In this document: piece after piece, positions 2,550 to 44,889 of the stretch
Layout: each line of letters starts with the position of its first letter
Position numbering within the stretch: the first letter of the stretch is position 1
Virus record (IMG/VR): IMGVR_UViG_3300045996_000698
Location: 1 to 44,889 of that record
Source: a virus
DNA length: 44,889 bases
Direction: 5' to 3' (one strand)
The notes under the pieces: generated by a model
What the model saw: the letters and a program-made list of their open reading frames with translations, nothing else
What the model was told of the DNA's origin: nothing
Databases searched by the model: none
Position numbers and translations under genes: made by a program

Positions 2550-3839
2550 CTACCTCCGCATCGGCATGACGATAGCGAGGCCGTCGTCGCCTTGCTTGCG
2601 CAGGGTGATGGGCGAGGCCGCGTCGATGGTCCTGATCTCGATCTGCCCCGGCCCGGCGAACCGGAGAGCGTCGAGCAGGTAGTCGAGGCGAACGCCGAAG
2701 CCCGCCATCTTCCCCCGCACCTTCGCCACCTTCGTCTTGACCGTGGACTCGCCGACCTTCACGACCATCACGATCTCGGTCTTCACGAGGTCGAGGGACA
2801 GAGAGGGATTCGTCGATGGCCCTGTGCGCGAAGGCTTGGGCGGCGGCGGGAGCTTGGCGAGCGCGGCCACCATATCGGCCTGCTCGATGACAAGGCATTC
2901 CTGCTGATCCTCTTTCGGGATGACCCTGTCAGCCTCGGGGAACGTGCCGTCGATCACCTTCGTCGACATGACGATGTCGTCGGCGCTGAAGATCATCCGG
3001 GCCGAGATATGGCGCGGCCTCGGCCGCTTGGCAGGCTGGCCATTCTCGTCGAGTGCAGGGCCGTACTCGGCTTCCTCGCGCTTGAACGCCTCAAGCGCGA
3101 CCGTGTCCTCGACCTTCACGCCGGAGAATGCAATGCGCAGCGGGCCATTGATCTTGCCAAAGAGGGACGGCAGGAGATTGACCGCTTGGCGCGGCACGAT
3201 CACGCCGCCAGCTTCAGCGCTGATGGCGTTCTCGATATTGGCGTCGGTCTCGCTCGCCTCGACGAAGTGACGGGCCATGCGATGGCCGTCTGTCGCGGTG
3301 AGGAGGAACTTGCCGTCGCGCGGCAGCATATGGACGCCGTTGAGGTAGTAGCGCGTCTCCTCGTCGGAGATCGCGTGCTTCACGCGGGCGAAGCCGGCGA
3401 GGAGCGGCGCGGCATCGAAGTCGAGATAGCCGATGACCGTCTCGTCGAGCCCGTTGGTCGGATAGTCGGCCGCATCCATGATCGACCGCATCTCGACTTC
3501 GACATCGTCGAGCGTGATGGCGAGAACGCGCGCGGATGGCGTCTTGACCTTCGCGTCCTTCTTCTCCAGCGAGCCCTTGATCTTGATCTTCTCGGCCTTG
3601 CTGACCTTCAGGATCGACGAGAGTTCGTAAGGATCGACGAGCACGTCGTCGCCGGCCCACTTTCCCTTGAGCGGAAGCTCGATGATCACGTCGAGATCGT
3701 TGGCGACCAACACCGGGCCGCGTCGGATCATGACGTACGACATGACAGGGATGGTGGTTTTCTTTGAGACGATCTGCTTCGCCTGATTCAGCGCGGCGAG
3801 CAGTGAGACGCGGTCTAGCGTCCCTGATGGTAGCGGCAT
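2550..3839 (-). CDS. dnaN: DNA polymerase III beta sliding clamp (phage DnaN)
   Basis: Ring-shaped processivity clamp that tethers a DNA polymerase to its template. The 429-residue product has clamp features: an N-terminus like MPLPSGTLDRVSLLAALNQA with the conserved TTIPVMSYV, the segment LTATDGHRMARH typical of the middle domain, and a C-terminus closing in MPMR. It is longer than the 366-residue E. coli clamp, with a Lys-rich insertion (SKAEKIKIKGSLEKKDAKVK) and a loop around ALDENGQPAKRPRPRH. ATG 3839 is preceded by CTGACCGAGGAAACC. It is first in the unit driven by promoter 2. No polymerase or clamp loader gene is in the window, so it may recruit the host polymerase. Confidence 0.9.
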   Translation of the reverse strand: MPLPSGTLDRVSLLAALNQAKQIVSKKTTIPVMSYVMIRRGPVLVANDLDVIIELPLKGKWAGDDVLVDPYELSSILKVSKAEKIKIKGSLEKKDAKVKTPSARVLAITLDDVEVEMRSIMDAADYPTNGLDETVIGYLDFDAAPLLAGFARVKHAISDEETRYYLNGVHMLPRDGKFLLTATDGHRMARHFVEASETDANIENAISAEAGGVIVPRQAVNLLPSLFGKINGPLRIAFSGVKVEDTVALEAFKREEAEYGPALDENGQPAKRPRPRHISARMIFSADDIVMSTKVIDGTFPEADRVIPKEDQQECLVIEQADMVAALAKLPPPPKPSRTGPSTNPSLSLDLVKTEIVMVVKVGESTVKTKVAKVRGKMAGFGVRLDYLLDALRFAGPGQIEIRTIDAASPITLRKQGDDGLAIVMPMRR

Positions 3840-9522: not shown

Positions 9523-10671
9523 ATGCCCCTCGACATCGACCCTTGGAAGACGGCCGAGACGCTGCTCGCGAAGGCCGCGACGCCCGGCGATCTCGCGCTG
9601 ATCGAAGCCCTCGCCAAGAAGCTGGAGCCGCGTCTCGCCAAGGCGCTGCTCGAAGCCTTCAGCAAGGTCGCCGACTCGATCAACGTCGAGGCGCTGGCGA
9701 ACGCGCTGGCCAGCGGCAACGTCGAGCGCGCGATGTCAGCCCTCGGCCTCGACCAGCAAGGCGCGGCCTTCTCTGCCGTGCGCAGCGCGCTTGAGAGCGG
9801 CGTGTGGGATGCCGCGATGGCGACAGGCCCGCGCATCGAGCGCATCACGAAAGCCGAGTTCGAGTTCCGGCGGCTCAACCCCGTGCTCGTCGACTGGCTG
9901 GAGAACTACAACTTCAATCTGATCAAGGAGACGACGAAGAAGACGAAGGAAGCCGTGCAGGACGTGATGATCGAAGGCATGAAGGCCGGCGAGAACCCGC
10001 GCACGACGGCGCGCGAGGTCAAGAGCATCATCGGCCTCACGATGCGCCAGCGTCGAGCGGTGCGCGCGTTCCGGAAGGAGCTTGAAAACTTCCACAACAA
10101 GCGCAACGCCAACGACTGGAACCTCGGCGGCAAGATCAGCCGTGCGCCCGGTGGCGCGCAGACGTATGCCATCGACGAGAAGGGCGATCCGAAGGACGGC
10201 ATCAACGCGCGCCGGCTGCGAGACTTCCGCTTCGATGGCACGCTCGCCAAGGCCATCAAGACGAAGAAGCCGCTCACGAAGGCGCAAATCGACAAGATGG
10301 TGAAGGCCTACACGCGCAAGTATCTCAAGTTCCGGGCCGAGACCATCGCCCGCACCGAAGCGCAGCGCGCCAACATGGTCGGCGTGCAAGAGGCATGGCG
10401 GCAGATGATCGCGGACGGCAAGATCGCGGAGTCGCTCGTGCGCCGGCAGTGGATCGTGACGAAGGACGAACGGTCGTGCTTGATCTGCAAGCCGATCCCC
10501 AGCATGAACCCGCCGCTCGGCGTGCCCTTCGCGACGCCGTTCGCAACGCCCGTAGGCCCGATCATGCTCCCGCCCGGCCCGCACCCCCAATGCCGCTGCG
10601 CCGTCTTCATCCGCTTCTACGAGCCGCAGCAGCTTTCGCAGTTCGTCCCGGTCAAGAGCGTGCTGACATGA
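9523..10671 (+). CDS. MuF-type minor head protein
   Basis: Minor capsid protein of the Mu gpF / SPP1 gp7 type, expected inside or at the portal of the procapsid and sometimes ejected with DNA. The 382-residue product is helical for about 170 residues. It then shows the family signature near the C-terminus: ARTEAQRANMVGVQEAW, followed by WIVTKDERSCLICKPI and the closing PPGPHPQCRCAVFIRF with conserved Cys and His. It is first of the rightward virion operon. Portal and terminase, normally just upstream, are not here; leftward genes lie there instead. Confidence 0.88.
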   Translation: MPLDIDPWKTAETLLAKAATPGDLALIEALAKKLEPRLAKALLEAFSKVADSINVEALANALASGNVERAMSALGLDQQGAAFSAVRSALESGVWDAAMATGPRIERITKAEFEFRRLNPVLVDWLENYNFNLIKETTKKTKEAVQDVMIEGMKAGENPRTTAREVKSIIGLTMRQRRAVRAFRKELENFHNKRNANDWNLGGKISRAPGGAQTYAIDEKGDPKDGINARRLRDFRFDGTLAKAIKTKKPLTKAQIDKMVKAYTRKYLKFRAETIARTEAQRANMVGVQEAWRQMIADGKIAESLVRRQWIVTKDERSCLICKPIPSMNPPLGVPFATPFATPVGPIMLPPGPHPQCRCAVFIRFYEPQQLSQFVPVKSVLT

Positions 10672-11097: not shown

Positions 11098-14000
11098 ATG
11101 AACACGGCGCATTCGGCAGTACAAGAGTCGTCGCCGATGTCGTTTGTGGAAAACCTCGCAGCGTTGCGCGCCTCGACCTCGCTCACTCCCTTCGACAAGG
11201 CCAAGTGGGACAAGCGGCATCCGAAGGGCACGGCAGACGGCGGCAAGTTCGCTCCCGGCGATGGATCGTCGAGCGAGCCCTCGAAGAAGAAGCTCACCCA
11301 CAAGGAATGGCTCGCGAGCGTGCTCGGCCCGAAGTATGGCTACAGCGGCCAGCACGAGGAGCCCGACGACGACGGCGATCCGTTCGGCGCTTTCGGCGAC
11401 GAGTATGGCGGCCATCAGGGCAGCTTGCCTTACAGCGCACCGCTGCCGCCGCCCGGCTGGAAGCCGCATCCGAAGGTCGACGACAAGGGCAAGGAAGTCG
11501 TCATCCGCTATCCGAGCAAGCCCACCGACGAGAAGTCGTGGACCGATGCGACGCGCACTGCCACGTGGACGCCGGGCAGCAAGACGCCGCCCTCGCTCAA
11601 CGGCGTCGAGATGAAGCCGTGGGTTGCGCCGACGACGCCCGAAGGCTGGGCGAACGTGAGCGGGCAGAACCCTGACCTCCTCGATCCGCCGCTCGTGTCG
11701 AAGGTGCATTACACGTGGAAGGACAAGGACGGTCGCGAGCACTCGAAGCAGAAGCATCTCTCGACCGGCGTGCTGATCGTCGAGCCCGATGGCCGCGTGT
11801 GGATCACGAAGCCGACGAACGAATACGGCGGCTACCAGCACACTTTCCCGAAGGGCACCGTCGAGCCCGGCATCCCGTTGCAGGCGAACGCGATCAAGGA
11901 GGCATGGGAGGAGACCGGCCTCAAGGTGAAGATCGTCGGCGTGCTCGGCGACCACGAGCGCGACACGAGCGTCGCCCGCCTCTACGTCGCGCAGCGTGAA
12001 GGCGGCACCCCGTCCGACATGGGATGGGAGTCTCAGGCCATCAAGCTCGCGCCGATCTCGACGGTGAAGGGCGTGCTGCTCAACCGCACGCACGACAAGA
12101 AGATCGCCGACGATCTCCACGTGATCCTGAAGCGCACCGGCATCGCCAAGGCGTTCATCCCGTCGTCGAGCAAGGGCTACAAGCTGCCGGGAACCAACGT
12201 CAACGCGCCGTCGCACAACAAGAAGATCGACGCGATCCGCGCACTCGCGCGACAGGGCGATTGGAAGGGCATTCTGTCCCTGCCGTTCGGCACAAACAAC
12301 TATGCGAAGAAGCAGCAAGTCGGCTTCGCCAACAAGATGCTCGAAGAACTCGGCGTGCCCTACAAGGTGACGGCCGGGCAGAAGGCCAATTCCTTCATCA
12401 ATCTGCCGACTGGCAAGGTGCCCAACAGCGTTCGACAGGGCCTCGACGCGCTCGCACCGCCGGGCGCTGAGAAGTTCGCCGATCAGGGCGACAAGGTTTC
12501 CGAGTTCCAAGCGGCTGCACAGAAGGACATCGACGCGCTCACGCCGAAGCCGGCGCGCGCGAAGGCCGACGCGCCCGGCGGCGGTGGCGGCTTCGACGAG
12601 TCCAAGCATCCGCGTTGGCCGGCTGGAACGCCGATGGGCGGCAAGTTCAAGAAGAAGGATGACCTCGGCATCACCGAGCCCGCCGTCGACCCGAAGACCG
12701 GCAAGCCCTACTGGCACTTCCTCGACGCCTACAAGAAGGCGCAGGCCGGCAACGTGGCCGCGATCATCGCGAAAGACCCCGACTACTCGTCGCCGAAGAT
12801 GCAGGCGATGTGGAAGGACTACAAGGAGACGCTGCTCTCCGATCTCGAAGACAAGGCCAAGAAGACCGGGCAGGAACTCGGCGCGACCATCGACGTGAAG
12901 CCGGCGCTCGCCGACAGTCTCAAGGGCTCCGTGACCAGCGATGCCGGCAAGGCGTGGGTGAACGGCGTGGAGATTCCCCACACGAAGCACGAGGGCGCAT
13001 CGACGGCCATCGGCGTGATGGGCGCGGCGGCGGTCAAGGGCGACAAGGCGCTGCTCAACAAGACCATCGACGCCACCGAGCAGATGATGATGCAGGCGTC
13101 CGATCCTGAATCGTCGAAGGCGTGGCAGCAGGCCGGCAGCTTCGGCAACAAGCTCCTCGCCAAGATGGACGGGGACATCAAGACCGAGGCGACCGCGACG
13201 CGCGTCGGCGGCGTGCAGTCCATCAGCGAGTGGAAGAAGGTCGGCAACAAGCCCGGCGGCAGCAACCCCGGCGCGGTGTTCGAAGACAAGCACGGCACGA
13301 AGTGGCTCGTGAAGGGCAACGCCAAGCAACTGAGCGGCGAAGTCGACGACGTGACCAGCGACAACCGCGCCAAGAACGAAGTACTCGCCTCGAAGCTCAT
13401 GCAGGCGGCCGGCATCCCGGCGGTCGAGATGAAGCTCGTCGACCTCAACGGCCAGTTCGGCGGACAGAAGACCGGCCAGCACGGCAAGCTCGGCGTCGCG
13501 GTGAAGATGGTCCCCTTGAATGGCTGGACAGGAAGCGGCGCAGAGAAGATGCACACGCAGGAGCAGTTCGCGACGCATGCTTGGCTCGCCAACTACGACG
13601 TGATGGGCATGGGCAACGACAACATGGGCCTCAACACGAAGACCGGGCAGATGGTCAACATCGACCCCGGCGGCGCGCTGCTATTCCGCGCGCAAGGCCT
13701 GCCGAAGAAGGGCTTTGGCAACGTGGTCGACGAGTGGGACTCGATGCGCGATGCGTCGAAGAACCAATGGACCGCTGCCGTCTTCAAGCCGATGACCAGC
13801 GACCAACTGATCGAGAGCGTCAACGCGGTGAAGAAGGTCTCGCCCGCGATGATCCACGATCTCGTGAACACCTACGGTCCGGGCGATGCCTTGGCGAAGA
13901 TTGATCTCGCCGAAAAGCTCAAGGCCCGGCGGGTTGATCTCATCGCGAAGGCCGACAAGCTCAAGAACCCGGCCGGCACGGCGAGCGCAGCCGAGAAGGT

Positions 14001-16167
14001 CGGCGCGGTCGCCAACGCCGAGTTCGAGGCGAAGCACGCGCGCGGCGCGGACGGCAAGTTCATCTCCAAGCCCAACTATGAGGGCGTGACAGAGCATCAA
14101 AAGGTCGACCTCGACGGCGTTTATGCCGCCGCACTCGCCGGCAACCTCGGAGACCTCAAGGCGTATGCGCAGCACAGCAGCCCGCCGGCAAAGGCCTATG
14201 CACACTTCCTGCTTGCGGAAATGACGCCGAGCAGTGCTCCGAAGTCGCTCGACCTCCCGCTCGCCTCGAAGCCCACGCCCTACGCCGACATCATCCACGC
14301 GAACGCGTCGCTCTTTGCGAAGGACCCCACCGACAGCGAAGCGCTATTTCAGGTCAAAGACTTCATGAGCAGCCCCAACCCCGATACGGCTGCCTATGCA
14401 ACGAAGCTCTACGGGATGATCAACTCCCCGAAGCCGCCGAGCTACAGCGTCATGCCGCCGCCGCTGGAAGCAGAGAAGGAGCACAGCAAGATCGCGGCGA
14501 ACCTCTACGCCAAGGCGCAGGCCGGGAAGTGGTCGACGGGCGATCAGCTTGGCGAGAATGCCGGCGTCGTCGAGATCATGCAGAACATGCACGCGAGCGG
14601 GCTCAAGAGCGCCAACTACACGACGGAGATGGGCCACACCATCGCCTACGGCAACAACCTCCTCGCCGTGCAGGATTCGACCGAGGGCACGAACTATAAG
14701 TCGCTGCTCTATGGGGCGAAGGCTTCGGTGCTCGATGAACCGAAGGTCGCGCGCCCGGCCGGCGTGATGAAGCCGTCCGGCGAGAGCGACTCGTCACCCT
14801 CACCCGCGACGCCGAAGGCGATCCCGCCGGGCATGCCGGACTTCGACAGCAAGAAGCTCGCACTGACCAACGTGAACGCGGCCAGCGTCAACGCCAAGAT
14901 CGACAAGATCAAGTCGTTCGCCATGTCCGGCAACGAGCAAGGCCTGCTCGCGCTGGGCTACGGCACGAACAACTACGCCAAGTGGCACGTGAAGCACGCC
15001 AACGAAGCGCTCGCGGCCCTCGGCTCGAAGTATCAGGTGCAGCCGGGGCAGAAGCCCAACACTCACCCGGCGCTCGGCGTGAAGGACATGCCGGCTCCTG
15101 CTCCGACGAAGGTCGGTGAGAAGCCCGCGCCCGCGCAGCATGCGCCCTCGGCCGGCACGAAGACGTTGATCAAGGTGCCTGAGTCGGTGCTCCCGACCGC
15201 GCCTGACTTCGCCAACTGGCAGGGACAGGGCAAGGGCCTGTCGTCTATCGCCGAGATCAACGAGTCGAACAACGCGGCGGTGAGCTACGTCAAGCAGCTT
15301 GCCCTCAACGGCGACCTCGAAGCGCTGAAGAACGCGACATTCAAGGAGTTCAACAAGGACACGAAGGCCTTTACCGGCGCGACAAAGAGCTTCGCCGATC
15401 ATCCGTCGAAGTACGTGCAGTCGTATTGGTCCGGTACCATCGACGCGGTCAACGACATCGTCAACCCGCCGAAGCCGCTCGTGCTCGGCAGCAAGTTCTC
15501 GGCGACGACGTTGCAGGCGCTCGCGCGCGAGGCGACGCCCGTGCCGCTGATGACGAAGTTCGCGAAGGTCAAAGACGACCACAAGTTCGGCTTCTGGATC
15601 GCGCTTGGGCAGAGCAGCTTCGCCCCGCCGGCTCCGACTGCGACGCCGTTGTCGCCGGCTGAAATCTCGGCCGGCGCGAAGGCGTGGCAAAGCTATTCAT
15701 CGACGACGAAGACGCTCACGAATTACGTGCAGGGTAGCAGCGCGATCATGCACTCGTACCAGAACGGCGCGACCGAGCATGGCGGCAATAGCCTGATGGA
15801 ACTGTCGAAGGCAGCCGTGAAGGACGCTACGCCGCTGCCGGTCGGCAAGACGCTTTACCGCTGGCAGAACATGCCGAAGGGCATGATCGAGCAGTTGAAG
15901 CTACTGCAACCCGGCGCGATGATTCAGACCACGAGCCCGATGCCGTCGTCGCATCACCCGACCGCCACGCAGGGATTCGGAACGCATCTATTCCGGCTCC
16001 ACGCGGCCAAGGGGGCAGCGGCCCTGCACAGCCACGGCTCGGGCAGTCATCCGGTCGAGAAAGAGGTCACGATCCTCCCCTACCAGCGCTTCATGCTGCT
16101 CAAGAAGCAGTTCACCGGATCGAAGTGGGAAGTGGACTTGCTCATGCTGCCCCCGACGAAGGAGTAA
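11098..16167 (+). CDS. Large polyvalent head-operon protein: Nudix, kinase-like and ADP-ribosyltransferase signatures
   Basis: A 1689-residue protein. Residues 215-350 are Nudix-like: G253...E268-A-W-E271-E272-T-G274, with the three metal-binding Glu kept but Glu259 replaced by Ile and Arg267 by Lys. Residues 700-950 look like a HipA/PI-kinase type fold: K739 in WLVKG, N832-Y-D834...N842, then N-I-D856-P-G-G. The C-terminus has the R-S-E pattern of arginine-type ADP-ribosyltransferases: R1588 (LYRW), T1611-T-S1613, E1654-K-E1656. A GTNNYAK module is duplicated (about 370-455 and 1260-1330) and a GGKF-type motif occurs three times (about 46, 514, 983). No signal peptide. Its position between MuF and the protease suggests packaging in the head and delivery with DNA, like T4 Alt, but this is inference. 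Confidence 0.8.
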   Translation: MNTAHSAVQESSPMSFVENLAALRASTSLTPFDKAKWDKRHPKGTADGGKFAPGDGSSSEPSKKKLTHKEWLASVLGPKYGYSGQHEEPDDDGDPFGAFGDEYGGHQGSLPYSAPLPPPGWKPHPKVDDKGKEVVIRYPSKPTDEKSWTDATRTATWTPGSKTPPSLNGVEMKPWVAPTTPEGWANVSGQNPDLLDPPLVSKVHYTWKDKDGREHSKQKHLSTGVLIVEPDGRVWITKPTNEYGGYQHTFPKGTVEPGIPLQANAIKEAWEETGLKVKIVGVLGDHERDTSVARLYVAQREGGTPSDMGWESQAIKLAPISTVKGVLLNRTHDKKIADDLHVILKRTGIAKAFIPSSSKGYKLPGTNVNAPSHNKKIDAIRALARQGDWKGILSLPFGTNNYAKKQQVGFANKMLEELGVPYKVTAGQKANSFINLPTGKVPNSVRQGLDALAPPGAEKFADQGDKVSEFQAAAQKDIDALTPKPARAKADAPGGGGGFDESKHPRWPAGTPMGGKFKKKDDLGITEPAVDPKTGKPYWHFLDAYKKAQAGNVAAIIAKDPDYSSPKMQAMWKDYKETLLSDLEDKAKKTGQELGATIDVKPALADSLKGSVTSDAGKAWVNGVEIPHTKHEGASTAIGVMGAAAVKGDKALLNKTIDATEQMMMQASDPESSKAWQQAGSFGNKLLAKMDGDIKTEATATRVGGVQSISEWKKVGNKPGGSNPGAVFEDKHGTKWLVKGNAKQLSGEVDDVTSDNRAKNEVLASKLMQAAGIPAVEMKLVDLNGQFGGQKTGQHGKLGVAVKMVPLNGWTGSGAEKMHTQEQFATHAWLANYDVMGMGNDNMGLNTKTGQMVNIDPGGALLFRAQGLPKKGFGNVVDEWDSMRDASKNQWTAAVFKPMTSDQLIESVNAVKKVSPAMIHDLVNTYGPGDALAKIDLAEKLKARRVDLIAKADKLKNPAGTASAAEKVGAVANAEFEAKHARGADGKFISKPNYEGVTEHQKVDLDGVYAAALAGNLGDLKAYAQHSSPPAKAYAHFLLAEMTPSSAPKSLDLPLASKPTPYADIIHANASLFAKDPTDSEALFQVKDFMSSPNPDTAAYATKLYGMINSPKPPSYSVMPPPLEAEKEHSKIAANLYAKAQAGKWSTGDQLGENAGVVEIMQNMHASGLKSANYTTEMGHTIAYGNNLLAVQDSTEGTNYKSLLYGAKASVLDEPKVARPAGVMKPSGESDSSPSPATPKAIPPGMPDFDSKKLALTNVNAASVNAKIDKIKSFAMSGNEQGLLALGYGTNNYAKWHVKHANEALAALGSKYQVQPGQKPNTHPALGVKDMPAPAPTKVGEKPAPAQHAPSAGTKTLIKVPESVLPTAPDFANWQGQGKGLSSIAEINESNNAAVSYVKQLALNGDLEALKNATFKEFNKDTKAFTGATKSFADHPSKYVQSYWSGTIDAVNDIVNPPKPLVLGSKFSATTLQALAREATPVPLMTKFAKVKDDHKFGFWIALGQSSFAPPAPTATPLSPAEISAGAKAWQSYSSTTKTLTNYVQGSSAIMHSYQNGATEHGGNSLMELSKAAVKDATPLPVGKTLYRWQNMPKGMIEQLKLLQPGAMIQTTSPMPSSHHPTATQGFGTHLFRLHAAKGAAALHSHGSGSHPVEKEVTILPYQRFMLLKKQFTGSKWEVDLLMLPPTKE
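12208..12460 (+). repeat. GTNNYAK module, first copy
   Basis: Protein-level repeat in the large protein, residues about 371-455. Shared pattern with the second copy: N-x-KID-x-I, then G-x-L-x-L-x2-GTNNYAK, AN-x2-L-x2-LG, Y-x-V-x2-GQK-x-N. Function unknown. Confidence 0.7.
14863..15080 (+). repeat. GTNNYAK module, second copy
   Basis: Residues about 1256-1330 of the large protein. It repeats the first copy at about half the positions, including the exact GTNNYAK and GQK. This indicates an internal duplication older than the present sequence. Confidence 0.7.
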
Positions 16168-18797: not shown

Positions 18798-19781
18798 ATG
18801 GAGCCGACGACTTCCGACGTTCATGTCAATGGCCCGCTGACCAACATCAGCATCGCCTTCATGCAGGGCGAGGATGCCTTCATCGCCAACAAGGTGTTCC
18901 CCAACATCCCGGTCACGAAGCAGAGCGACCTCTACTTCACCTACGACCGCGGCGAGTTCAACCGCGACGACATGAAGGAACGCGCGCCGGGCACCGAAGC
19001 GGAGGGCGGCGGCTACACGATGAATGCTGACGCGAGCTACTACGCTCGCCAGTATTCGTTCAAGCACGACATCCCCGATCCGGTGCGCGCCAACGCCGAC
19101 GTGCCCCACAACCCGGACCGCGCCGCGACGATGTTCGTGTCGCGCAAGGGCCTGATCCGCCGCGAGCGCATCTTCGCGACGAACTACTTCTCCACGGGCC
19201 TGTGGACCTACGGCAAGGTCGGCGCCTCCTCGGCGTCGGGCACCGATGTCAAGTATTGGAGCGACACCACGTCGACTCCGATCACCGACGTTCGCCTCGG
19301 CAAGCAGCGCGTGCTGGAGAGCACGGGCTTCGAGCCCAACACGCTGATCTTGGGCCGCAAGGTCTATGACGTGCTGTGCGATCACCCGTCGTTCCTCGAC
19401 CGCATCAAGTATGGGCAGGACAACGCCGTCCCGGCCCGCGTGACGCGCGCTGCCATGGCGCAGCTTTTCGAGGTCGACAACGTCTACGTGATGAACGCGA
19501 TCTACAACACGGCCGCCAAGGGTCAGACCGCGTCGCACTCCTTCATCGGCGGCAATCACGCGCTGCTCATGTATGTCACCCCGACGCCCGACATCATGAC
19601 GCCGACTGCCGGCTACACCTTCTCGTGGACCGGCATGTTCGGCAACAGCCAGCTTGGCACCCGCATCCGCCAGTACCGCATGGAGTCGATCCAGTCGGAC
19701 CGCGTCGAGATCGATATGTGCTTCGACCTGAAGCTCGTGTCGGCGGACCTCGGCTACTTCTTCACCAGCGTCATCCAGTAA
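18798..19781 (+). CDS. Major capsid protein (HK97 fold)
   Basis: A 327-residue main shell protein. It shows the pattern of phage major capsid proteins with FIANKVFPNIPVTKQSDLYF, then YDRGEFNRDD, a GGGYTMNADASYYARQY strand region and IPDPVRANADVPHNPDRAAT. The C-terminal third is beta-rich (YTFSWTGMFGNSQLGTRIRQ). It follows the decoration protein and is followed directly by a strong terminator. No long N-terminal delta domain is present, which fits with a separate scaffold. Confidence 0.88.
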   Translation: MEPTTSDVHVNGPLTNISIAFMQGEDAFIANKVFPNIPVTKQSDLYFTYDRGEFNRDDMKERAPGTEAEGGGYTMNADASYYARQYSFKHDIPDPVRANADVPHNPDRAATMFVSRKGLIRRERIFATNYFSTGLWTYGKVGASSASGTDVKYWSDTTSTPITDVRLGKQRVLESTGFEPNTLILGRKVYDVLCDHPSFLDRIKYGQDNAVPARVTRAAMAQLFEVDNVYVMNAIYNTAAKGQTASHSFIGGNHALLMYVTPTPDIMTPTAGYTFSWTGMFGNSQLGTRIRQYRMESIQSDRVEIDMCFDLKLVSADLGYFFTSVIQ

Positions 19782-36211: not shown

Positions 36212-36288
36212 GGCAGGGTGGAGCAGTCTGGTAGCTCGCGTGGCTCATAACCACGAGGTCGCGGGTTCAAATCCCGCCCCTGCTCCCA
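36212..36288 (+). tRNA. tRNA-Met (CAT), initiator-like
   Basis: 77 nt forming a full cloverleaf with encoded CCA. Acceptor GGCAGGG / CCCTGCT, D stem GAGC/GCTC, anticodon stem CGTGG/CCACG with loop CTCATAA, T stem GCGGG/CCCGC with loop TTCAAAT. The order and spacing match bacterial initiator tRNA (GTGGAGCAG-CTGGTAGCTC). Only a weak G-U forms at position 1:72, in line with initiator tRNAs, but only two of the three consecutive G-C pairs at 29-31:39-41 are present. It lies within the lysis region, away from other tRNAs. Confidence 0.9.
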
Positions 36289-41560: not shown

Positions 41561-41790
41561 TTGGCAACCTTTCCATGTTCGAGCCCCAGCATATACGCCA
41601 CGGCCCACTCTCCACTCACGACGCCGCCGCACAGGGTGCATCTCCATTGGCTGATGCCAGCGTCGGGATCGACCCTTAGCAAATCATGTCGCGAACAGCT
41701 ATCTAATTTTTCCCGGTTCTCCCGAGCCCAAGCGACGAGCTTCTGCGTGTCGTCTTTGCTCAAGCCCCGACTGTTGATCTTTTCAGCCAT
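41557..41790 (-). CDS. Small protein with CxxC motif
   Basis: A 77-residue protein, MAEKINSRGLSKDDTQKLVA at the start. DSCSRHDLL, then WRCTLCGG, offers Cys/His ligands for a small metal site; a helix follows (GEWAVAYMLGLEHGK). It overlaps the upstream HTH stop by 8 nt and the next start by ATGA. AT-richer than its neighbours. Function unknown. Confidence 0.65.
   Translation of the reverse strand: MAEKINSRGLSKDDTQKLVAWARENREKLDSCSRHDLLRVDPDAGISQWRCTLCGGVVSGEWAVAYMLGLEHGKVAK
41562..41571 (-). promoter_or_regulatory. Leader motif AAGGTTGCCA, copy 4
   Basis: Same 10-nt motif, one base before ATG 41560; it lies in the coding end of the preceding gene. No clear operator-promoter precedes it on this strand. 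Confidence 0.6.
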
Positions 41791-42247
41791 CGCCGATCAT
41801 CAACGCGGCGGCGTCGACCTTCAGCTTCAGCGCGACAACCGCCAACTGGTCAGCGCGCAGTGAGCGCGCGCCGGCTTCGTGGGCAACGATCTCGTGCAGG
41901 GCGATAGCGGTGCCCTCCACGAGATGCCGTTGCAGCATGCCGGCCTGCGTGCGCAGCGATGCCATGCGCCTGCCGAGCGCCTTGCGCAGCGCCTCCGAGT
42001 CTCGCTCCGAGTAGAACGGGACCATGAGGTCTCCGGCGTCGAGCCGCAGCACCTTGGCGGCCATGGCGACTTCATCGCTCCGCATCATCCGCGCGCCGCT
42101 CTCGTGCCATCGGATCGTGTTGATCGACACGCCGAGCGCCAACGCAAGATCGGACAACGTGATGCCGTGAGCCTCACGCTCGATCCGCAGCCGAGCGCCA
42201 AGCGCGGCTGCGTCAATGTTCTTTGCGACAGGCTTTGTTCTGCCCAT
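41783..42247 (-). CDS. Tandem helix-turn-helix (XRE-type) regulator
   Basis: A 154-residue protein from ATG 42247, 2 nt after the RecT stop. Residues 18-70 form an XRE HTH (LGARLRIEREAHGITLSDLA, LALGVSINTIRWHESGAR). Residues 85-150 repeat the plan (LGRRMASLRTQAGMLQRHLV, EGTAIALHEIVAHEAGARSL), with both halves ending in an L-x-VDA-like tail. The second HTH is more divergent. A covalent dimer of HTH domains could bind a near-palindromic operator, such as the 17-bp sites of the left block. No protease or dimerisation domain is seen. Confidence 0.8.
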   Translation of the reverse strand: MGRTKPVAKNIDAAALGARLRIEREAHGITLSDLALALGVSINTIRWHESGARMMRSDEVAMAAKVLRLDAGDLMVPFYSERDSEALRKALGRRMASLRTQAGMLQRHLVEGTAIALHEIVAHEAGARSLRADQLAVVALKLKVDAAALMIGDG

Positions 42248-42249
42248 GA

Positions 42250-43731
42250 TCACTCCTCTTGCTTCACGGGCATCTTGCAGCCCCACGTCTCAGTGACGGT
42301 CTTGCGCACCGCTTCCTTGTAGGCCGGGCTGCGAGCCTCGACGGTCCAGAGGAGCATCTTGTATTCCTCGACCGTCGCCTGCCGGACTTCCGCGTCGGTG
42401 ATGTTGATCATCTCCTCGTTGATCCACTTCCACGACGCCTTGAAGTCGCCGCTCGTGTTCCACAGACGGTCGATCTCCTCCGGCATCTTGGGCACGAGCG
42501 CGAGCAGCGGGTTCTCGGCGATGGCCTGCTCGCGCGTCTGCGCCGTCTGCTTGGGCGCGGTCGAAAGCAAGTCGCCTTGCTCCGGCTTCTGATCGGCCGA
42601 CTCGTCCATCTCGGCAGCTTCGCGGTCGGTGAAGATCATCTCGCCGCCGCTTTTCTTCAGGGTCTCTCGCACTTCAGCGTGCGCAGCGGCCGATGACTTG
42701 CCTTCGGCCGGCTGCTGCTCGGCCTGCTCGGGCTGCTCCTGCTCCTGCTGCTGCTGCTGCTCCTGCTGCTCTCCGTTCGACGCCGGATCGTCGGGATTGA
42801 TGTCGGTCACGTTGCCGTTGCCGCGACCGGCGAAGCGATCCAGCGAGCCATTGCCGCCGGCCTTCGCGCCGCTGCTCGACGGCAACTGCGGCGGCGACTG
42901 CGGAACAACGCCTTCCGCCGAATCCTCGATGTCGAGTGCCGCCGTCATCTTCGGTCCCTTGGGCAGCCGCTTGCACAGGCGGCGGATCACGGTCTTCTTG
43001 CCCATCTCGACCGGATCAGTCTGCCACGGTCCGGCGCTCGTGATCTTGCCGGCCTTGTAGGCCTTCCACGATTCCGTGCGGTCACGGATCGCATCGACCT
43101 CGGCCTGCGACATCGGCTCGAAGTCGCTCTCGCCGTTGGGATACTTCACGACGGCGTAGAAGCCCACGACCGGACCGCGAACGCCGAAGACCTTGGGCTT
43201 GTGAACGAGCTTCTTGTCGACGCCAAGCTCGACGATGCACTCGTCGCTCTCGTGAACCTCGTGCGCGTAGATGCGCAGATTGTCCTCGTTGCGCGCGAGC
43301 TTCATCAAGCCCTGATAGCCGACACGCGCCTGCACGGCGTCGAGTTGCCGGCTCACGTTGTTCCACGCCGGAAAGAGGTAGGCCTCGCCGAGCGTCTTGT
43401 CGAAGCTCAAGCCCAGCCGCGCGATGGTGATGATCTCGCGGAACAGGAGCCCCGGCTTGCAGGCAAGCAACTTCGGGTTCGCCATGATGGCTGCCGACAC
43501 GCTGGCCTTGAAGGACTCGTAGGGCAGCGAGTTCGACAGCGCCGACGTAATCTGCCCGGCGTGCTGCTCGCTGAAAATCTCGTCGAGGAAGTTCTGCCCG
43601 GCCTTGCTGCCCTGCTCCTTCTGCTCCGGCGTCTGCCCGCGTGACGGCACGACGTTGCCTGTGCCCTCCTGCTTCGGCTGCGGATGATTGCCGGTGTTCT
43701 GCCGGCCCTTAGTTGCGGTTGCGCTTGCCAT
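42250..43731 (-). CDS. recT: RecT-family single-strand annealing protein
   Basis: Annealase of phage recombination, working with the upstream exonuclease. 493 residues. Residues 55-260 carry the RecT core: NPKLLACKPGLLFREIITIA, RLGLSFDKTLGEAYLFPAWN, QARVGYQGLMKLARN, then GPWQTDPVEMGKKTVIRRLC and KRLPKG. Residues about 305-345 are a Gln/Glu-rich linker. The C-terminal 110 residues (DRLWNTSGDFKASWKWINEE) form an extra domain not usual in RecT, possibly ssDNA-binding-protein interaction or regulation. The typical RecT is near 270 residues. Confidence 0.9.
   Translation of the reverse strand: MASATATKGRQNTGNHPQPKQEGTGNVVPSRGQTPEQKEQGSKAGQNFLDEIFSEQHAGQITSALSNSLPYESFKASVSAAIMANPKLLACKPGLLFREIITIARLGLSFDKTLGEAYLFPAWNNVSRQLDAVQARVGYQGLMKLARNEDNLRIYAHEVHESDECIVELGVDKKLVHKPKVFGVRGPVVGFYAVVKYPNGESDFEPMSQAEVDAIRDRTESWKAYKAGKITSAGPWQTDPVEMGKKTVIRRLCKRLPKGPKMTAALDIEDSAEGVVPQSPPQLPSSSGAKAGGNGSLDRFAGRGNGNVTDINPDDPASNGEQQEQQQQQEQEQPEQAEQQPAEGKSSAAAHAEVRETLKKSGGEMIFTDREAAEMDESADQKPEQGDLLSTAPKQTAQTREQAIAENPLLALVPKMPEEIDRLWNTSGDFKASWKWINEEMINITDAEVRQATVEEYKMLLWTVEARSPAYKEAVRKTVTETWGCKMPVKQEE
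42720..42776 (-). repeat. CTG/CAG-type short tandem repeat in recT
   Basis: Plus-strand run of CTGCTC and CTGCTG units encoding the Gln/Glu-rich linker (EQQEQQQQQEQEQPEQ). Repeat number could vary by slippage in steps of three bases, changing linker length but not the frame. Confidence 0.7.
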
Positions 43732-44758
43732 TGACGATCTCCTTGATCCTGAGCCCTTGCCTGTAAACCAAATCGGGAATCCACTTCGACACCATCATCC
43801 CCGGCCGCTCGACGACAGGCCACGAGATCGCGTACTCGCTGGTCAGAGCCTTCGTCGCGCGGCCGGAGCTTAGACCGCCCATGGCGGCCTCGATCCTTCC
43901 CGCGAGGATCGATTCGACATTCTCGATACGCTGGCGCTGCCGCCGCAGCGTGATCAGCTTGCGGCAGTAGCGGTTAAAGATCGGATCGGCCAACTCGACG
44001 CCGACATCCTTCTCGCCGAAGCGGTAGAGATCGGACGCGGTCGCAGCATCAGCGAACGCCACGGGCGCGCGGTCGAGCGCGATGTCGCGCCAGAACTCGG
44101 CGATGGCCTTGGCGATCTTCAGTTGCGTCGGCTCGTGCAGCTTGAAGGTGGTGCGCAGGAGCGTGTTGCCGCCGACACAGGCGATGATGTCGCCCTCGGT
44201 CCGGCCGCTCACGCCAAGCTGCGCCTGCAATTGGAGCATGATGTGGAGCGGCGGCGTCTCGATGCCGCCATCGGCCCTGTCGGTGCCCCACTGGTCGCGG
44301 AAGACGAGCGCGTCGACATTCTTGAACTCGACCGGGCGCAGCCCCTTCACCGTCTCGTAGTCGAGCGTCGCGCCCCATCCTTGGATGCGCGGATGCGTCA
44401 TGTAGCGGCGCACCTTGCGGATCGGCTTGTCCGGCCACTTCTTCATGGCCCACTGCGCGAGCCCGGCTTCGAGGAACGTGCCGGCGTCGGTGCGCTCGTT
44501 GTCGGCCGCGTCGGGCTCGATCTTGCCGGCCTTCTCCAGCCAAAGCCGATAGCCCGACTTGTAGGGCGACAGGCATTGCAGCGGCATCGCCCCCGGCGGC
44601 AGCGGATCGGTCATCGACTGGATCACGACTTGCGGCCCGCGCTCGCCATCGCCCGGTATCTCGACCTCGTAGAACAGGGCAGCGACATCACTGCCGCCGA
44701 TATGCTGCATGCGCAGGTCGCGCCAATGGTCTTCGCTCTCGATCTTGATGTAGGCCAT
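43709..44758 (-). CDS. YqaJ / lambda-exonuclease family nuclease
   Basis: A 349-residue protein, first gene of the right leftward block. Motifs: QHIGGSDVAAL at the N-terminus, ERTDAGTFLEAGLAQWAMKK, GWGATLDYE followed by RPVEFKNVDA (catalytic D...E-x-K), and HIMLQLQAQLGVSG. This is the PD-(D/E)XK fold of viral recombination exonucleases that resect dsDNA ends and load the annealase. The C-terminal helical part (LITLRRQRQRIENVESILAG) is typical. It overlaps recT by 23 nt. Confidence 0.88.
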   Translation of the reverse strand: MAYIKIESEDHWRDLRMQHIGGSDVAALFYEVEIPGDGERGPQVVIQSMTDPLPPGAMPLQCLSPYKSGYRLWLEKAGKIEPDAADNERTDAGTFLEAGLAQWAMKKWPDKPIRKVRRYMTHPRIQGWGATLDYETVKGLRPVEFKNVDALVFRDQWGTDRADGGIETPPLHIMLQLQAQLGVSGRTEGDIIACVGGNTLLRTTFKLHEPTQLKIAKAIAEFWRDIALDRAPVAFADAATASDLYRFGEKDVGVELADPIFNRYCRKLITLRRQRQRIENVESILAGRIEAAMGGLSSGRATKALTSEYAISWPVVERPGMMVSKWIPDLVYRQGLRIKEIVNGKRNRN

Positions 44759-44804
44759 GCGGGCGAACCTCTATTGATTCCGTGATACTCGCAAGAATTA
44801 AAAA

Positions 44805-44813
44805 TGTGGAAAA
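44805..44813 (-). other. Near-match DnaA box beside an AT-rich run
   Basis: Read leftward TTTTCCACA, one mismatch from the DnaA consensus TTATCCACA. Directly next to it is the AT-rich TTTTTAATT. A single box is weak evidence for an origin. Confidence 0.3.
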
Positions 44814-44861
44814 GTTGCAACGGTGATAGTCGAAGGCGCGCGCGCCGTGATATGGCGGTGA

Positions 44862-44877
44862 TGTTTCACGTGAAACA
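44862..44877. other. parS: parS centromere site
   Basis: TGTTTCACGTGAAACA is the exact 16-bp palindromic ParB-binding site known from bacterial chromosomes. It is in the leader of the recombination block. A ParB protein would load here and slide as a clamp. No parA or parB gene is visible in the window, so ParB would come from the host or from phage genes outside the window. Confidence 0.85.
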
Positions 44878-44889
44878 AGGAACCTCACC

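Follow-up and report, generated by a model that had tools for sequence, protein, structure and literature searches.

What is a canonical bacterial ParB-binding site doing in a phage genome in which no partition genes are seen? The window, by which we refer to the whole stretch of 44,889 nt that was analysed and which is an entire IMG/VR record, harbours the palindromic 16-mer TGTTTCACGTGAAACA at 44862-44877, matching the parS consensus in 16/16 positions and being identical to the consensus parS of ParB binding and crystal studies (PMC7383237). The earlier note had described an exact consensus site, expected far less than once by chance and adjoining recombination genes, a description that is borne out: no other match exists in the record even with three mismatches allowed, shuffled windows gave a mean of 0.02 matches at that tolerance, the base composition predicts 1.7e-6 exact occurrences in the window, and the neighbours encode RecE-like and RecT-like proteins (Table 1). 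A chance occurrence of parS at this position is very unlikely.

Setting of the site and identity of the phage

The site is intergenic and lies 104 bp upstream of the start codon (44758) of the RecE-like gene, the first gene downstream of it, with the RecT-like gene overlapping recE in the same direction. The GC content of the intergenic region is 50%, versus 64% for the phage. Only 12 bp separate parS from the right end of the record, and these last bases, belonging to a metagenomic contig, are supported by the assembly alone; neither other records with the 26-bp end sequence of the window nor contigs overlapping beyond the right end were found. A reading of parS as a terminator or hairpin was rejected, the fold z-score being only -1.3.

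The record is a linear fragment devoid of end repeats. Its head genes start with head morphogenesis at 9523, and the window has neither terminase nor portal genes, though these adjoin the head genes in relatives. The window is therefore incomplete: it represents about three quarters of the genome of a siphovirus whose family has genomes of roughly 60 kb. By its major capsid protein (18798-19781) the closest named phage is the Roseobacter phage Xiamenvirus RDJL Phi 1 (53% identical), and identity to Pseudomonas phage RSP is 50% (both about 63 kb). The capsid also retrieved 13 IMG/VR relatives, one of which is a 12.4-kb piece that is 99.99% identical and ends short of parS. Another relative, G011 (60,751 b), has nearly identical ends, which suggests a complete circular genome; its gene at 11999-13057 is 43% identical to the recE-like gene of the window, and a repressor-like helix-turn-helix gene is located behind its recE promoter region. 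No recE relatives were found in bacterial genomes. Elsewhere in the window we noted a phage sliding clamp (DNA polymerase processivity factor) gene at 2550-3839 (-; PHROG 947, E=8.5e-33), a 1689-codon open frame amid the head genes (11098-16167, +) with a Nudix-like box read by eye and similar long frames in G011 and another relative, G006, as well as a tRNA-Met gene (36212-36288, +) between tail and lysis genes, possibly an attachment site or a phage tRNA.

The promoter region of recE also holds three direct repeats, TATCAC(G/C), and a fourth, repeat-like CATCAC (44858-44863) shares two bases with parS. The clustering of TATCAC in the window (P about 9e-7) recurs in relatives: with respect to recE the repeats are positioned at -29, -70 and -94 in the window, at -53, -85, -117 and -127 in G011, and at -50, -82 and -114 in the recE-bearing locus L147. 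The spacing is 32 bp in two relatives (locus L139 upstream of 13018 and L147 upstream of 1186) and irregular in the window. These repeats may be binding sites (operators) of a phage regulator, with the helix-turn-helix protein encoded in the recE-recT block, a homologue of which occupies an equal relative position in G011, as the candidate reader.

Table 1. Features at the right end of the window.
Feature	Position	Strand	Remarks
parS TGTTTCACGTGAAACA	44862..44877	no strand	Palindromic, intergenic; sole match at <=3 mismatches; expected 1.7e-6
Intergenic region upstream of recE	44759..44889	no strand	Cut by record end
Three TATCAC(G/C) direct repeats	44782..44852	-	GTGATA on + at 44782, 44823, 44847; upstream of recE
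RecE-like/YqaJ exonuclease gene	43709..44758	-	PHROG 434 E=5e-35; Pfam YqaJ E=6e-10
RecT-like single-strand annealing protein gene	42250..43731	-	PHROG 148 E=3e-57; Pfam RecT E=7e-27
Helix-turn-helix regulator gene	41783..42286	-	HTH_31 E=1e-9; same gene block as recE-recT

Relatives of the phage and the search for Par genes

Conservation of the site in related phages, which the earlier note had named as a check, was not seen among the relatives available. With up to two mismatches allowed, parS was detected in 0/17 relatives (13 from IMG/VR recovered via the capsid and four named phages), the apparently complete G011 (60.7 kb) included, all of them distant, with capsids at most 62% identical. 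It is likewise absent from the recE-bearing loci L147 and L148 and from 12 capsid-relative loci in metagenome-assembled genomes (MAGs). RDJL Phi 1 and related roseophages share the head gene order of the window; the whole genome of RDJL Phi 1, in contrast, has no parS at <=2 mismatches. At the recE promoter, the palindrome is missing in G011 and L147, although both have TATCAC repeats.

The observation that the window lacks parA and parB was upheld: neither a ParB_N domain nor a ParA-type AAA_31 domain was found in its 44.9 kb, about three quarters of the genome. Could the partition genes reside elsewhere, as in a phage-plasmid? Phage-plasmids such as P1, N15 and similar elements encode their own ParA and ParB, and the likeness to the window is a centromere-like site in a phage genome; the difference is that no ParA or ParB was found in the window or in the apparently complete relative G011. 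No ParA was detected in G011, and the only ParB_N-like match, weak and below cut-off, is the N-terminal part of a DNA methyltransferase (L140 1791-3119, upstream of terL). Considering this, the suggestion of a phage-plasmid with its own Par genes outside the window becomes less likely.

parS in ParB-less viruses and in possible host chromosomes

Exact parS is present in at least 120 loci of IMG/VR, corresponding to at least 4e-5 of its records. As controls for the whole database, the reversed palindrome was found in 1 locus and a version with the two central bases exchanged in 33. ParB_N exceeded the cut-off in only one of the first 50 parS-bearing records, and the enrichment of exact parS among viruses without ParB is strong. 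For the main group, an origin of the sites from contaminating host DNA was rejected, because terminase (33 loci) and portal-like protein (30 loci) are the most shared families in the parS loci listed and because isolate and complete phages have the same site. Among the IMG/VR loci listed, parS is often placed 18-151 bp upstream of terL, and five-copy arrays near terL occur in L017 and L044. A separate case is IMGVR_UViG_3300037518_000322 (G078; loci L087/L295/L296), in which 24 parS-like sites, mostly TGTTTCACGTGGAACA, form two clusters (91.7-95.7 kb and 105.8-110.5 kb) next to a ParA gene; a search of this record for ParB_N gave no match. The clusters probably represent its own partition locus with an unrecognised ParB, and owing to the adjacent ParA gene we left this record out of the candidates for hijack of host ParB.

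Conservation among loci that were found by parS is circular, and we replaced these with loci drawn by terminase similarity alone, yielding 76 marine phage loci with enough upstream sequence. Exact parS is present 56-152 bp upstream of terL in 48/76, with one more locus at one mismatch, and a further 11/76 have it 279-1058 bp upstream (10 exact, 1 with one mismatch), numbers that stem from close relatives (terminase 85-100% identical) and are not independent. In total, 61 matches were obtained at up to two mismatches, all but two exact; of five control palindromes, four had no match, and the other, being two mismatches away from parS, only echoes it. Within this set parS stays exact while its distance to terL changes. 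Loci L195-L274 are IMG/VR marine phages akin to the Pelagibacter phages HTVC027P and HTVC023P, and most have exact parS at -56 to -152 or at about -1056 from terL. HTVC027P itself has a one-mismatch parS, away from terL.

Isolate and complete phage genomes were searched with an 18-bp parS, with one extra base on each side. The site was recovered in 213/50,697 records, about 0.4% of a redundant set, and the same search with a control palindrome gave 0. The carriers comprise Listeria and Lactobacillus herelleviruses, Microbacterium and Gordonia phages, Bacillus phi29-like phages (B103 and Goe1 with exact parS), Glutamicibacter phage Voltaire, Ruegeria and Butyrivibrio phages, microviruses, Spiroplasma phage 4 and inoviruses. 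Several have more than one copy (Voltaire two in tandem, Woes two, DSS3P8 three, Arian three). ParB_N and ParA were absent in 8/8 of the parS-bearing genomes tested, and in seven of these the sites are intergenic or multiple. The ten commonest organism names account for 201/213 records; enterobacterial phages are neither among these names nor among the matches listed. To our knowledge enterobacteria have no chromosomal ParB, and the lack of their phages among the matches listed is expected if the site is read by the ParB of the host.

Turning to bacterial chromosomes, two MAGs whose bins include capsid relatives of the window phage, G099 (Hyphomicrobiales) and G102 (Rhodobacteraceae), each contain two exact copies of TGTTTCACGTGAAACA in the gidA-gidB region, separated by about 1.9 kb; in G102 the parA and parB genes come immediately after these sites. 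Both organisms are candidate hosts of such phages. The 16 bp of the window are accordingly identical to the consensus and to alphaproteobacterial gidA-gidB sites of the chromosomal ParABS (Spo0J/ParB) system; the difference is that the window site is in phage DNA, beside recE-recT, with no parA or parB seen. Of the earlier proposal that the site is addressed to host ParB, the exact match, the identical MAG sites, and the enrichment and conserved position elsewhere speak indirectly in favour, and the absence from all distant relatives speaks against.

Probable borrowing of host ParB and rival explanations

Aggregated, the data point towards the 16-mer of the window probably being a genuine parS of a phage that borrows host ParB, its DNA being held or segregated by these means. 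The following argues for this: the site is exact, unique and hardly expected from base composition; the identical 16-mer is present in alphaproteobacterial MAGs with relatives of the phage in their bins; and the site recurs, with conserved position, in unrelated ParB-less viruses. Host ParB dimers would nucleate at the phage parS, form closed clamps in a CTP-dependent manner and slide along a few kilobases of phage DNA, the recE-recT block among them. To the cell, this DNA would look like origin DNA: it would be attached to the ParA/SMC machinery, and for as long as it persists it might stay on the nucleoid or be segregated together with it. As ParB spreads it may, plausibly as a side effect, also repress the recombination genes next to the site. 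For the window phage we infer ParB binding, clamp spreading and a benefit. In Caulobacter, nucleation of ParB at parS is accompanied by its association with several kilobases of the surrounding DNA, and the cells tolerate an additional parS cluster only in a region of about 500 kb around the native cluster (PMC5815017). A prophage integrated elsewhere would consequently pay for its parS, and unintegrated DNA fits better. The window phage perhaps persists in this form, since two relatives (G011 and G006) encode a tyrosine integrase and none was found in the 44.9 kb of its incomplete genome.

Exploitation of foreign ParB by DNA elements has precedents. Spore entrapment of phi29 DNA depends on Spo0J (Meijer 2005, as cited in PMC9437464), and phi29 is a ParB-less phage whose DNA is handled by a host ParB homologue, as would be the case for the window phage. 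The setting there is spore formation, the capsid family is unrelated to that of the window phage, and the relatives of the latter point to alphaproteobacteria, which lack such spores. SGI1, also an element without its own ParB, employs parS-like sites to capture the ParABS of the IncC plasmid and is segregated by this other replicon (PMC10954446); it mimics a plasmid parS at two sites, unlike the single chromosomal-type parS, of putative function, in the phage studied here.

Some observations weigh against borrowed host ParB, namely the lack of parS in distant relatives, the single site with no array and the position 12 bp from the contig end. In addition, parS abuts the TATCAC array, maybe a phage operator region, with its TTTCAC half about 23 bp from the next repeat. 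Accordingly, a regulator of the phage itself could use the site as a palindromic operator, parS-like by convergence, with the TATCAC repeats as other operators: these are common to the recE upstream regions of G011 and L147, and the TTTCAC within parS differs from the repeat in one base and sits at roughly the distance expected of a further repeat. Only about 6/16 bases are explained in this way, though, and the remaining ten would match by chance at about 1e-6 per repeat; moreover, none of the other repeats is palindromic, and the palindrome is missing from G011 and L147, so we regard such convergence as distinctly improbable. An operator function could instead be exerted by host ParB itself, repressing or timing the recE-recT promoter, so that the recombination genes would respond to the cell cycle of the host or to its amount of ParB. 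The placement 104 bp upstream of recE, beside conserved repeats, fits, as do the repression of genes adjoining parS3 and parS4 by ParB of P. aeruginosa (PMC5521831) and the host CtrA binding sites with a similar proposed purpose in alphaproteobacterial phages (PMC9437464). We nevertheless consider this unlikely as the main role: no consensus promoter was found near parS when looked for, and elsewhere the placement varies, from -56 to -152 or about -1056 of terL to intergenic positions after several inovirus genes. Sites that stay exact, yet can move and are sometimes multiplied, suggest loading sites rather than operators.

Multiplication would also serve titration, in which the growing number of phage copies during replication would sequester ParB and so interfere with segregation of the host chromosome. 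Phage replication multiplies sites, some viruses have arrays (six copies in a 5.9-kb inovirus, five near terL in L017 and L044), and a mobile element with parS mimics destabilises a rival replicon (PMC10954446). With a single site seen in the window phage, and no evident benefit for a phage that kills or lysogenises its host, titration appears very doubtful. Hardly credible, finally, is a chance match or an artefact of the metagenomic contig end. The site is 12 bp from this end, the 26-bp end sequence is in no other record, and all relatives found lack parS, but the expectation of 1.7e-6, set against a frequency of at least 4e-5 in IMG/VR and about 0.4% in the redundant isolate and complete records, favours a real site 20:1 or more, and the adjoining TATCAC repeats place the region inside a phage promoter.

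Returning to borrowed host ParB, there is about an even chance that viruses of many unrelated kinds carry an exact host parS, but no ParB, as a recurring strategy to enlist ParB and SMC, and that the window is one instance of it. The viruses concerned would be tailed phages of actinobacteria, firmicutes and alphaproteobacteria, inoviruses with up to six sites, and microviruses, their DNA putatively positioned or segregated via host ParB/SMC. No survey of host-type parS in phages was found in the literature searched, which covered few subscription journals, and phage exploitation of host ParB was documented there only for phi29. The principle is thus already known, and what is new here is the breadth and setting of parS in viruses; from their genomes, phages appear to borrow the DNA-sorting machinery of the host more widely than the few described cases suggest. 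If the sites work, viral hijack of the bacterial segregation machinery would be common across double- and single-stranded DNA viruses, parS could serve as an indicator, readable from sequence, of host range in uncultivated viruses (hosts with ParB), and the result would be relevant to the question of how stray parS sites are tolerated by chromosomes.

This reading is testable in cultivable phages, such as the Bacillus phi29-like phages, Ruegeria DSS3P8, Gordonia Woes and Microbacterium phages. For ParB hijack by a filamentous phage, a strong candidate model is bajarodino virus 6 (PQ006135, L287), an inovirus of 5,910 nt with six exact parS at 635, 662, 1414, 2857, 4096 and 5628. One of these sites comes 27 bp after another, and 4/6 lie 1 to 20 bases past annotated stop codons.
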